Below, in pieces: positions 21,553 through 57,910 of a stretch of DNA of 64,000 bases (positions are counted from its first letter, which is position 1; the number at the start of each line of letters is the position of its first letter). The DNA is taken from contig JBDKTA010000021.1 of assembly GCA_039680605.1 (NCBI GenBank), positions 1 to 64,000 of the forward strand, in the 5' to 3' direction. The DNA is from Planctomycetaceae bacterium. Lineage in GTDB: Bacteria; Planctomycetota; Phycisphaerae; SM23-33. The notes below the pieces were generated by a model. That model was not told the origin of the DNA, searched no databases, and saw nothing but the letters and a program-made list of their open reading frames with translations. A program made the translations under genes and the position numbers.

Positions 21553-21730
21553 TTTCACCGCGGAGATCGCGGAGATCGCAGAGGTCTGATGAGGGAGAAG
21601 CACAACGAACTCCGCCGGCGCGCTTCTCTGGCAGCGTGTATTTTCAATCAAAGCCATCGCAACCGCTGAATTGTTCTTTCGTTTTGAACCTCTTGCTTCT
21701 CTGCGGTCTCTGCGATCTCCGCGGTGAAAC
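21553..21730. repeat. Short-period inverted repeat, GCGGAGATC family
   Basis: The left arm (21553-21583) is TTCACCGCGGAGATC followed by more 9-nt GCGGAGATC/GCAGAGGTC units. The right arm (21701-21728) is the complement, ending CTCCGCGGTGAA. About 115 bp of apparently non-coding DNA lies between. It starts seven bases after the TAG of the fusion gene and occupies the gap to the convergent gene. Confidence 0.8.
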
Positions 21731-24504: not shown

Positions 24505-24635
24505 GGACGCTCTCCTGAGTAAGGGTTGTCCGTGGGATGGAATGATTGTACGGCCGGAAGCAATTCCGGCAAGGTGGATTTAAGTCGAAAAACAAAGCCT
24601 CGCCACGGTCGAACATGAACCTTCGGTTCAGATCA

Positions 24636-24729
24636 ATTAGCCGCTGAGGTCGCTGAGGTCGCAGAGGGAAGAAGTTGTTTCATCTCTTTACATCCTCAGC
24701 GTCCTCAGCGACCTCTGCGGCTTAATCTA
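24636..24729. repeat. 94-bp short-period hairpin element, GCTGAGGTC family, copy A
   Basis: The left arm is ATTAGCCGCTGAGGTC plus 9-nt repeats and the right arm is the near-complement ending GCGGCTTAATC. Read on the opposite strand, it matches 32507-32600 at 91 of 94 positions; the three differences are in the loop. Confidence 0.92.
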
Positions 24730-25116
24730 TCGGCCGCATAATCGCATTCTGCAACAGATTGTGGGCCAAGCCCGCGCCGGGCTGTTTGTGGCTTCAGAGT
24801 TTGGGTGCTTTTTGTACGCTTTTTGGGTGTGTTTTTAGCCCTCCTGAGCAAAGCCAATTGTTGCACAACCTATCCCGCAATTGTCCGTTCGTTGTTCTTT
24901 CTTGTCTGTTTTCAGCGTTTCTTCAAAACCGTTGTTGATATAAGTACTTGTCTTCTAAATGGTTACAGTGCAATTAACCTTCCGCCTCGCCCCAGGCAGA
25001 CAATATTCCCGCTTGCGGCTTGGCAGGCTTAATCGGTGACGACCGCGGATAAAAGATCATTCTCAATCCGCCCAAGGCACCACGCCCTCAGAAGAATTGT
25101 CCGTTGAGGAGATATA

Positions 25117-29205: not shown

Positions 29206-29819
29206 TTCCAATCTGGTCATAGCCTGTGGCATCCTGTGTGTTGTGGGGATAACGGGGTCTGGGGGATAAAGGGGGGAAACAAAGGGGCGCTGACAAGCCG
29301 GGGCGGCGATGATGTCTTCGACGCCTGGAACCGATGAGGAAGACTTGGAGCTTGAACTATCTGCGTTCTTCGTGCCCTTTGTGGCCAGTCTCTCCTTGCG
29401 GGCATCATTTTCAGTCGCCCCGCTGGGGCTCTGGTTGCTGTTTGCTCGTTACCCCGGGCTGCGCCTTCGGCTTCACCCGGGGCTACTATCAGGCGCCCCT
29501 GACGGGGCTGAGAGGGCCCCTGGAGTGCGGCAGCGCTTGCCACGCTGTAGCCTTCGGCGAAGGCGGGACGCCGCCTTGGCTGTTGTTGGCTTGGAATCAC
29601 CCCGTCGAGGCGAGCAGGAACAATGGAATGATGGAAGAATGGGGGGCGCGATGGTCCTTCCATTATTCCATCATTCCATTATTCCATCATTCCAGTATTC
29701 CCTCATTCCATCATTCCGTTTCTTCCTTCCTCCGCGCCCTCTGTGCCTCTGTGGTGAGTTTTTTTTCTTTGTGTTCCCCGTGATCTCTGGCAAAGTTGTT
29801 GCACTTCAGGAGTACGATA
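29206..29819. repeat. 614-bp composite array of different intergenic repeat families
   Basis: In order: GGGGATAACGGGG-type repeats (29245-29280); a CTGCGTTCTTCG...CTTTGTGGC half arm (about 29360-29385); a palindrome-like CCCCGCTGGGG and CCCGGGCTGCGCC...CCCGGGG module (29420-29485); TGGAGTGCGGCAGC (29520-29533), shared with the element at 54360-54470; a GGAATGATGG inverted repeat (29621-29719); and a CCTCTGTGGTGAG arm (29735-29758). No gene is convincing here; open frames on the plus strand are made of repeats. Confidence 0.7.
29621..29719. repeat. GGAATGATGG-family inverted repeat
   Basis: The left arm GGAATGATGGAAGAATGG (29625-29642) pairs with a longer right arm of TTCCATTATTCCATCATTCC units (29657-29719). 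The unit GGAATACTGGAAT occurs both here (complement) and at 38813-38871, showing that the two belong to one family. Confidence 0.75.
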
Positions 29820-30877: not shown

Positions 30878-31193
30878 TAAATCGCGATGCGAATTTGAAC
30901 TTGATCGTGGAAGAGGCGGCCTGGTCCGGGTGTTTCACCGCGGAGATCGCAGAGGTGTTTCGAATGAAAAACAATTGTGGAAGTTCATATTAACGCCGAC
31001 CGCGACGTTAGATGGTCTTGTTTTGAGCCCCTTGCTTCTCTGCGTACTCTGCGGTCGCTGCGGTTCATGCAGTTATCGGCCTAGAATGTCGCGCTGCCGG
31101 GGACGGGGGCTCGGCGGCTGCAAGGAATTGATGCGGACGACCTCCGCGCGTGCCGGCGCGTGCCGACATGTCACCACAATAAAGGAGCCCGAA
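30878..31193. other. 316-bp intergenic region containing a GCGGAGATC-family repeat
   Basis: Left arm TTCACCGCGGAGATCGCAGA (from 30933) and right arm CTCTGCG...CTGCGGTTCA (31038-31067) flank about 80 bp of AT-richer DNA. The remaining 120 bp up to the next gene shows no gene; GCGCGTGCCGGCGCGTGCC is a local direct repeat. Confidence 0.7.
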
Positions 31194-32506: not shown

Positions 32507-32600
32507 TAGATTAAGCCGCAGAGGTCGCTGAGGACGCTGAGGATGTGAAGAGACAAAACAACTTCTTCCCTCTGCGACCTCAGCGACCTCAGCGGCTAAT
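32507..32600. repeat. 94-bp short-period hairpin element, GCTGAGGTC family, copy B
   Basis: Same element as 24636-24729 but in the opposite orientation, 91 of 94 bases identical. The arms are perfect copies; the differences are only in the loop. Confidence 0.92.
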
Positions 32601-38812: not shown

Positions 38813-38871
38813 TGGAATGAGGGAATGGTGGAATGGTGGAATGATGGAATACTGGAATACCCGAATGATGG
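38813..38871. repeat. GGAATGGTGG-type direct repeats
   Basis: Degenerate units of GGAATGATGG/GGAATGGTGG/GGAATACTGG repeat about six times in one direction. They match the arms of the inverted repeat at 29621-29719. It lies between two minus-strand genes. The right-hand partner arm is missing. Confidence 0.75.
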
Positions 38872-38908
38872 ACCCGCCGCTTGGGGCTTGGCGTCCTTTC
38901 ATCGCCCG

Positions 38909-44443: not shown

Positions 44444-44635
44444 TAGAGCCGCTGAGGTCGCTGGGGTCGCTGAGGAAGAAGGAGATGGGGAACACAGAAG
44501 GATGGATGAATGGATGAGTGGATGAGTGGATGGATGGGGGAACCCGATCATCCAGCCATCCAACCATCCAATCATCCGCTCGTCCATCCATCCAACGTCT
44601 TCTTTCCTCAGCGACCTCAGCGACCTCAGCGGCTA
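44444..44635. repeat. Nested repeat: GGATGGATG hairpin inside a GCTGAGGTC-family hairpin
   Basis: Outer arms: GAGCCGCTGAGGTCGCTGGG and on (44446-44475) and CCTCAGCGACCTCAGCGACC and on (44606-44635). Inner arms in the loop: GGATGGATGAATGGATGAGT and on (44500-44540) and the complementary CATCCAGCCATCCAACCATC and on (44548-44593). The inner unit has a 4-nt rhythm and is unrelated to the outer 9-nt unit. Confidence 0.85.
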
Positions 44636-49076: not shown

Positions 49077-49240
49077 CGAGAAAATCCGAAACAACAAATT
49101 CGAAATCCGAAACAAAGGACAAACAGCAAGAAGCAAAGAACCCCTATGAAACCCGATTCCCTTTGCGGTTTGCTCTTTGTTGCTTACGCCGTTTGATTCG
49201 GATTTCGAGTTTCGGATTTCGAATTTCGGATTTCCCCCCC
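49077..49240. repeat. Long inverted repeat of AATCCGAAAC/GGATTTCG units
   Basis: Left arm: AAAATCCGAAACAACAAATTCGAAATCCG and on (49078-49120; given here in part). Right arm: GATTCGGATTTCGAGTTTCG and on (49197-49238). Inner sequences (AAACAGCAAGAAGCAAAG and CTCTTTGTTGCTTAC) also pair, so nearly all 164 bp could form one hairpin. Confidence 0.75.
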
Positions 49241-56479: not shown

Positions 56480-56634
56480 TTCACAGCGGAGATCGCAGAG
56501 GTCGCAGAGAGAAAAAGGAAGAGACTAAAAAGTAACCGTCCCGGATTATTTAATTCGGGACGGTTACTATTTATTTGTTCATGCCTTTTCCCCGTCTCTC
56601 TAATTCTCTGCGTTCTCCGCGTTCTCCGCGGTGA
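56480..56634. repeat. Nested repeat: GTAACCGTCCCG palindrome within a GCGGAGATC-family hairpin
   Basis: Outer arms at 56480-56512 and 56606-56634 consist of 9-nt GCGGAGATC/GCAGAGGTC units and their complement. Inside the loop AGTAACCGTCCCG (56531-56543) and CGGGACGGTTACT (56556-56568) form a perfect 13-bp inverted repeat. The right outer arm encodes the C-terminus of HemA. Confidence 0.88.
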
Positions 56635-57910
56635 GATCTTTCCCCAGCGCAAACAGTTCGCGCACGGCGTCCATGAGTTCCTGGGTGCGGGCGCTGTCGG
56701 GGTCCTGGCGCAGGCGGGTGGCGGGGTCGTGCAGGATGCGGCGAACCGCGCGGTGCAGCGCGCGTTGGATGACTTCTTCGTCGTCGGCCGCATCAGCGTG
56801 CGTCGAGAGCTTGTTGCGGGCGGAGGCGAGTTCTTCCGCGGCGATCTGCTCGAGGCGTTTGTAGAGCGCGTCGATGGTGGGCGAGACCTTGCGCACATGC
56901 AGGCGCTCGGTGAGCTCGGCCACGTGCCGGTCGATGATGTCGCAGGCGCGGTCCTGCTCATCCTGGCGCAGGGCGATCGTCCGCCGCACGGTCTGTTCCA
57001 GGTCGTCGATATTGAACAGGCTGACGTTGTGTACGCCGGCCGCGGCGGGATCCACGTCGCGCGGAACGGCGATGTCGACGATCAGCAGGCTCTTGCCGCC
57101 GCGGCGGTGCTGGGCGGCCTCGACCATCGCCGCCGTGACGAGGGGCTGGGGCGAGCCGGTGGAGGTCACAACGATGTCTGCCGCGGCCAGGTGCTCATCC
57201 AGGTCTTCCAGCGACACGCTCGTGCCGCCGCAGAGCCGCGCCAGCGCCGCGGCGCGATCGGGCGACCGGTTGGCGATCAGAATCTTTCGGCAACCGAGCT
57301 TCGCCATGTGCTTGAGCATCATCGCGCTCATCTCGCCGGCGCCGATGCTGAGCACGCAGGCCTGCTCCAGCGCCGGACGCCCCTGGCGGATCAGATCGAC
57401 GGCGACCGAGGCGACCGAGACCTTGCCCGCGGCCACACCGGTCTCGGTGCGGACGTGCTTGGCGGTGTGGAGGGCGCCCTCGACGAGTTCCTTCATGACG
57501 CCGCGGGCGGCGCGGGCCTCGTCGGCCAGGCGGCAGGCTTCTTTGACCTGCGCGACGATCTGGTCTTCGCCGGGCACGAGGCTGTCGAGCCCCGCCGTCA
57601 CGCGCAGCAGATGGGCGACGGCCTGGGCGTCGGCGAGGCTGTAGGTTTCGCCGGCGAAGCTGTCGGGGTGGACGCGGTGGAACTCGCCCAGCCAGTCGAC
57701 AAGGTCCTGCACTCGCGGCCGCTCGTGCAGGGGGCGGGCGACGTACAACTCGACACGGTTGCAGGTCGACAGCAGCAGGAACTCTGCCGCCGGCCATCGT
57801 TGGGCAAGCTGCGCTAGTGCGAGGGAGGCTTTGGCGCAGTCAAAGCTGAGCCGCTCTCGCATTGAGACAGCGGCGGTCTTGTGACTGGCGCCCACGCACA
57901 GAATTCGCAT
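56600..57910 (-). CDS. hemA: Glutamyl-tRNA reductase
   Basis: First enzyme of the C5 pathway to 5-aminolevulinate: reduces Glu-tRNA(Glu) with NADPH. 436 aa. The catalytic Cys is Cys50 in LLLSTCNRVELY. The region GLDSLVPGEDQIVAQVKEA is the substrate-binding signature. The NADPH-binding domain has SIGAGEMS, and the dimerisation helix follows. The final ten residues (TAENAENAEN) are encoded by the arm of an intergenic-type repeat and are not part of the conserved enzyme. ATG 57910 is preceded by GAGGAC; the GTG just before is an alternative. Last gene of the minus-strand operon from 64000. Confidence 0.95.
   Translation of the reverse strand: MRILCVGASHKTAAVSMRERLSFDCAKASLALAQLAQRWPAAEFLLLSTCNRVELYVARPLHERPRVQDLVDWLGEFHRVHPDSFAGETYSLADAQAVAHLLRVTAGLDSLVPGEDQIVAQVKEACRLADEARAARGVMKELVEGALHTAKHVRTETGVAAGKVSVASVAVDLIRQGRPALEQACVLSIGAGEMSAMMLKHMAKLGCRKILIANRSPDRAAALARLCGGTSVSLEDLDEHLAAADIVVTSTGSPQPLVTAAMVEAAQHRRGGKSLLIVDIAVPRDVDPAAAGVHNVSLFNIDDLEQTVRRTIALRQDEQDRACDIIDRHVAELTERLHVRKVSPTIDALYKRLEQIAAEELASARNKLSTHADAADDEEVIQRALHRAVRRILHDPATRLRQDPDSARTQELMDAVRELFALGKDLTAENAENAEN

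Follow-up and report, generated by a model that had tools for sequence, protein, structure and literature searches.

The window, a stretch of 64,000 nt from a Planctomycetaceae bacterium, carries two copies of one hairpin element. The first copy, at 24636-24729, is flanked by two divergent genes, for an amidohydrolase and a PEP-CTERM protein; the neighbours of the second, inverted at 32507-32600, are the genes for a DUF6677 protein and an isochorismatase. As claimed in the first-pass annotation, the first copy and the reverse complement of the second are identical at 91 of 94 positions and the arms are unchanged, all three mismatches (24681, 24682 and 24689) falling in the 26-nt loop. Directly outside the match the identity is only 22-45%; the flanks are thus unrelated, and a duplication of a larger segment or an assembly artefact, a possibility raised in the same annotation, is therefore ruled out, in line with its view that one unit was copied to two places. 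The unit contains no open reading frame, so its mobilisation would, as also suggested there, need help in trans. The hairpin is far stronger than expected by chance (minimum free energy of copy 1 as single-stranded DNA -32.4 kcal/mol; shuffled sequences -10.6 +/- 2.25; z = -9.7), and nonamer GCTGAGGTC occurs eight times in the window versus 0.65 expected. No Rfam family matches the window at the gathering score. The features are listed in Table 1.

Table 1. Tandem-armed hairpins of the window and their parts
Position	Strand	Feature	Details
24627..24638	+	Copy 1, left margin	conserved in ~38 copies, consensus GGGATCAAATTA
24639..24667	+	Copy 1, left arm	AGCC and three nonamers (GCTGAGGTC GCTGAGGTC GCAGAGG)
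24668..24693	+	Copy 1, loop	26 nt, no ORF; contains all differences from copy 2
24694..24722	+	Copy 1, right arm	CCTCAGCGT CCTCAGCGA CCTCTGCGGCT
24723..24740	+	Copy 1, right margin	conserved, consensus TTAATCTATCGGCGGCAG
32514..32542	-	Copy 2, arm	counterpart of copy 1 right arm
32543..32568	-	Copy 2, loop	
32569..32597	-	Copy 2, arm	counterpart of copy 1 left arm
44447..44634		Third family member	GCTGAGGTC arms; different interior, a nested 8-mer-armed hairpin (44503-44594, TGGATGAA units)
21553..21729		ACC-family hairpin	ACCGCGGAGATCGC...GCGATCTCCGCGGT; gene-less, 115-nt interior
30937..31064		ACC-family hairpin	
56480..56637		ACC-family inverted arms	
29617..29685		8-mer-armed hairpin	TGGAATGA units; same family encloses a four-helix-bundle gene at G000:C48:46282-46590

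The pair described in the first-pass annotation is real, but it understates the family: the genome of this bacterium (G000; 5.23 Mb in 72 contigs, 95.4% complete) holds about 40 dispersed copies of the full unit with unrelated flanks, and 254 arm-like matches (120 + 134), compared to 26 for the reversed control. Each arm consists of three tandem copies of nonamer GCNGAGGNC. When the copies are aligned by their arms, the unit, GCCGCTGAGGTCGCTGAGGTCGCAGAGG-loop-CCTCAGCGTCCTCAGCGACCTCTGCGGC, measures about 82 bp, and conservation extends beyond it in margins of about 13 bp (left) and 18 bp (right). On the right the homology fades gradually, with no sharp edge, and in five copies the shared sequence runs about 60 bp beyond the margin. 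In the 36 copies aligned, the GCNGAGGNC skeleton is near-invariant in both arms, while the N position of each nonamer (arm columns 6, 15 and 24) is mismatched in about one-third to two-thirds of copies, mostly as T.T or A.A, arm complementarity being imperfect. Because the skeleton is conserved in spite of these mismatches, the alignment favours a putative sequence-specific recognition of each nonamer in addition to hairpin pairing.

What lies between pairs of the same arms differs greatly within this genome, and in places is itself a nested hairpin of another unit. Such nesting, with GCTGAGGTC arms outside and arms of other tandem units inside, is seen at 44447-44634 of the window and at loci L067, L069, L072 and L084, and looks as if one hairpin family inserts in the loop of another. 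The GCTGAGGTC element often has as its neighbour a further dispersed hairpin repeat, GGGTGGCATGGCGACACGCG...TGTCGCCATGCCACCC (contigs with L003, L005, L009, L029 and L040). The search of plasmids and phages for the 104-bp unit yielded no copies, and the literal sequence search of open-access papers no relevant match. No empty site of the window's family, and hence no target-site duplication, was found in the relatives searched, three others giving weak matches only, and the right flank, which as a separate repeat would reveal an empty site, was found solely together with the element.

In the 1.26 Mb of the genome scanned, strong hairpins number 191, compared to none in a shuffled contig, and 48 of them are tandem-armed, with a period of mostly 9, 7 or 8. 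All but one of these 48 are non-coding, though about 86% of the scanned sequence is coding, according to genes called with a simple custom script. They show no preference for convergent gene ends, and hence a role as transcription terminators was rejected. The sister nonamer family, here called ACC (ACCGCRGAGATCGC), is also common in this genome, its interior typically measuring about 115 bp. Further families with tandem 7-8-mer arms (units TGGAATGA, TGGATGAA, GTGAGTGG and ATTCGAA) are observed in the window at 29617-29685, 38814-38872, 44503-44594, 1137-1230 and 49096-49226. An exact-pattern scan of named genomes detected hairpins with the nonamer of the window family in other phyla; among the matches listed there are Bacteroidota, Acidobacteriota, Chloroflexota, Gemmatimonadota, Planctomycetota, Nitrospirota, Verrucomicrobiota and several proteobacterial classes. 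A few cross-phylum matches (Streptomyces, Nocardiopsis) resemble coding sequence, as judged by eye.

At one locus of the same genome (G000:C22:261361-261880) near-identical 31-nt ACC arms surround a single gene, which encodes a GxxExxY protein of 136 aa (PF13366, E 1.9e-43; TIGR04256, E 1.5e-45). Three further PF13366 genes bring the total in the genome to four; their arms are built of other units (CACGAATGA, GGATTAAGA and a weaker one), and gene-less hairpins related to these units are also present. No GxxExxY gene with exactly GCTGAGGTC arms was found among the four in this assembly, which is 95.4% complete.

The association extends to other bacteria. PF13366 is present in 17 of the 20 hairpin-bearing genomes from other phyla. 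The flanks of PF13366 genes were compared by taking, from the 330 bp to each side, the best inverted repeat without gaps (score cut-off at least 14) and calling it tandem by a strict periodicity rule. Flanking inverted repeats were found at 48 of 56 loci, 34 of these being tandem; several more loci appear tandem by eye. These loci come from genomes chosen by their hairpins, together with G000 (inverted repeat of at least 14 at 25 of 29 loci, 16 tandem), and from a class sample not chosen in this way (23 of 27, 18 tandem). In the controls, mismatched flanks gave inverted repeats in 5 cases out of 150, and random intervals in none out of 300 at a score of at least 18. The arm units vary between loci (CGCAGAGGA, CACGAATGA, AACACGGAT, CACGAAGGC and others) and match within each locus. 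GxxExxY genes with no detectable arms are L325, L328, L330, L341, L391 and L396, as well as L360, L361 and L367.

Among 928 genes scanned without bias, the small genes tightly enclosed by tandem arms are GxxExxY genes and one four-helix-bundle gene (PF05635), the remaining tandem-flanked genes being larger, with hairpins on either side. Tandem arms are specifically associated with GxxExxY. In the sample of 150 genomes of the class, arm motif and gene are only moderately linked (PF13366 in 22 of 26 motif-rich versus 74 of 124 other genomes, p = 0.023), and two motif-rich genomes (G144, G231) carry no PF13366 gene. In the open-access literature on GxxExxY or PF13366, represented by one incidental mention and otherwise by titles and abstracts, no link to repeats was found.

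The GxxExxY protein is itself a well-supported prediction of a PD-(D/E)XK nuclease of the Cas4/RecB type. Among 52 sequences the invariant residues are G31, G33, E36, Y39, D76, E86, K88, N117 and F118, which include the predicted catalytic E, D and ExK set (E36, D76, E86, K88). The AlphaFold2 model (pLDDT 95) has as its best PDB match Cas4 SSO0001 (VIA Z 9.6, rmsd 3.8 over 100 residues), with Hjc resolvases lower (Z 6.8). Foldseek alone gave no E-value below 0.001, SSO0001 and lambda exonuclease being at the top. The PADLOC search returned weak matches only, two of them to Cas4, and the PHROGs search no match.

Armed gene units are polymorphic in presence and absence. Some Ramlibacter species have nothing between trpE and trpG (a gap of -4 to 8 nt), 16 have arms and the GxxExxY gene there, one more has an armed gene with a different unit (L371), and three have the gene without arms. 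The arm unit differs across species (CGCAGAGGA, CGCAGAAGT, CGCAAAAGT), both arms switching together. Moreover, the number of arm motifs follows the gene: all eight armed-gene genomes contain 90-292 motifs, and all four empty-site genomes 0-3 (p = 0.002, uncorrected for relatedness). An independent insertion of like kind is present in the Sphingomonas gap between fabD and fabG, and a relative has the empty site. Among plasmids no precise empty site for GxxExxY was found, the sole candidate (fabD|fabG, 74% identical) being too diverged for a duplication to be recognized. GxxExxY units recur across genera at trpD|trpC (L316, L335) and trpE|trpG (L321, L327), as well as between ABC transporter genes (L320, L326) and at fabD|fabG (L406). 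A possible function of the GAGG found in their left arm is that of a ribosome-binding site.

The second gene found in such arms belongs to PF05635, the family of the 23S rRNA intervening-sequence protein, a four-helix bundle. Genes of this family lie inside inverted tandem 7-/8-mer arms at G000:C48:46282-46590 and on Nostoc plasmids (L408, L409, L415, L416, L417). At two of the Nostoc sites, comparison with empty sites resolves the insertion to the exact base: GAGGTAATG[unit]ATGGGATTTG versus empty GAGGTAATGGGATTTG, and GGTTCTA[unit]CTAGTTATG versus empty GGTTCTAGGTTATG, with one base missing. They are compatible with a putative 3-bp duplication (ATG and CTA, respectively), which may also be a chance match, since a base is missing at the second site and both are at start or stop codons. 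A third site is represented by the full unit, a gene-less hairpin and the empty state, each in different plasmids.

Considered together, the data make it somewhat probable (about 0.55) that the window hairpins represent a class of tandem-armed mobile elements, as MITE-like, non-autonomous copies that have no gene. Members of this class would have two inverted arms, each with about three or more tandem 7-9-mers, and complete members would hold one small gene, in nonamer-armed ones usually that of the GxxExxY nuclease (about 130 aa, with a predicted Cas4/RecB-like fold). The window unit has the inverted tandem-nonamer arms around an interior; genes between arms of the same unit are found in this genome for the ACC family and other units, not for GCTGAGGTC.

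The arms, which have the anatomy of repeated units and of a hairpin when single-stranded or extruded, would serve as binding sites. A GxxExxY nuclease encoded elsewhere in the genome, most plausibly by the gene of the sister ACC family (C22:261361), would cut at or near the arms, and the released or copied hairpin would enter intergenic DNA via joining or repair, armed gene units being polymorphic in their insertion. Gene-less derivatives, dispersed here in about 40 copies, would persist and multiply in trans. We infer this action of the nuclease on the arms and on gene-less copies; a nuclease is not known to transpose DNA on its own. Homing endonuclease genes and TnsA of Tn7 exemplify nuclease-driven elements, in which a PD-(D/E)XK nuclease is encoded by the mobile unit. 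The present units differ from these in the tandem terminal arms, in many gene-less derivatives and in that no partner recombinase is seen.

Spread by template switching, or by homologous or single-strand-annealing copying of hairpins, with no enzyme dedicated to it and with GxxExxY as cargo or as a parasite that lands in hairpins, could explain the fuzzy right margins and the flank copied along in five copies, the nesting of hairpins of different families, and the presence of two unrelated genes in such arms. We still consider it unlikely, since in different phyla, with different units, the gene is found together with arms that match, and unit families track the presence of the gene in Ramlibacter.

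The hairpins could also be MITEs of an unseen DDE-type insertion sequence, the arms being its terminal repeats. Like MITEs, the copies are non-autonomous and dispersed and end in inverted repeats; their variable interiors would also suit such an origin, and multi-copy insertion sequences are often lost from assemblies such as this one, of 72 contigs. They differ from MITEs in that no parent transposase was found in the sequence scanned and in that the interiors change freely between constant arms. In the 1.26 Mb of G000 scanned no transposase lies between such arms; the single genes convincingly enclosed there are GxxExxY and the four-helix-bundle gene, and in other phyla too it is GxxExxY that repeatedly lies between the arms. 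This makes such an origin improbable.

Equally improbable is that the repeats are host regulatory sites, inverted tandem-repeat pairs bound by a global regulator. The idea has a precedent in Geobacter metallireducens, where tandem 7-9-mers, three to four in a row and arranged as inverted pairs with variable spacing, are proposed to be sites of an IHF/HU-type global regulator (Aklujkar 2009, PMC2700814), and one repeat class is said to resemble multicopy sequences in many genomes. The likeness is one of architecture only, and the part of the text consulted mentions neither a GxxExxY gene nor mobility. The periodic, strongly conserved GCNGAGGNC skeleton would suit a regulator; the insertion polymorphism inside operons, the presence or absence that differs between congeners, the nuclease gene resident in the units and the inconsistent position relative to genes would not. 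Some copies may have been domesticated as regulatory sites.

Least probable, indeed very unlikely, is that the hairpins are REPINs that owe their mobility to a RAYT (Y1) transposase acting in trans: size, intergenic placement and the 15 Y1_Tnp genes of the genome speak for it, but tandem arms occur at 0 of 29 testable Y1/RAYT loci of this and other genomes (inverted repeats at 13), the Y1 genes of G000 having GTAG-type REPs or other inverted repeats in their flanks and never tandem nonamer arms, and 4 of 20 other hairpin-bearing genomes lack a Y1_Tnp gene (present in 16). Moreover, REPs are tagged palindromes of 20-40 nt, while the stem here comprises about 29 bp of tandem nonamers, and its feet (AATTAGCCGC / GCGGCTTAAT) carry no GTAG/CGTC tag. 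The RayT/IS200-like helper proposed in the first-pass annotation thus finds no support, and a RAYT partnership was rejected for this genome and the 20 others tested. REP/RAYT and TIR/TIRYT associations have been described (PMC3733652). Like REPs and REPINs with their RAYT transposases, the hairpins are short, intergenic, multicopy and gene-less, and would be moved in trans; the difference is in the tandem arms, in that no Y1 gene is flanked by them, and in the enclosed gene, which encodes a predicted PD-(D/E)XK nuclease.

Returning to the class of tandem-armed mobile elements, a wider claim, to which we give slightly less than even odds, is that the window pair belongs to the gene-less hairpin families spawned by a widespread, apparently undescribed minimal mobile element, composed of tandem 7-9-mer arms and one small gene (the GxxExxY nuclease or, in related units, the four-helix-bundle protein) and moving between operon genes with no transposase. 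On present evidence, from the open-access literature searched, the class would be categorically new; the gene-less copies alone would resemble a variant of MITEs or REPINs. Nonamer hairpins occur in many phyla and GxxExxY is common, with no known role, so that their linkage offers a candidate engine for the repeats and a candidate function for the protein. If the claim is true, a nuclease-only, transposase-free route joins the known modes of bacterial DNA multiplication.

The closest parallel for the PF05635 units is the intervening sequences of 23S rRNA genes, such as the Coxiella IVS, a selfish insertion with an S23 ORF (PMC4990558). Both are small and selfish, with one small S23/IVP ORF, PF05635 being found here in 7-/8-mer-armed hairpins; intervening sequences, unlike them, are sited in rRNA genes, and the window nonamer family is tied to GxxExxY rather than to PF05635. 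Finally, two Y1 transposase genes of G000, L057 (C68:95685-98020) and L062 (C39:118388-120612), have long inverted repeats of their own (AAGTTGGGACGCTTACCACTTTTC and GGGTGCCACGCACAACTCCGTTGTGCGTG, respectively), and the latter repeat recurs as a hairpin within some GCTGAGGTC arms (L067, L068).
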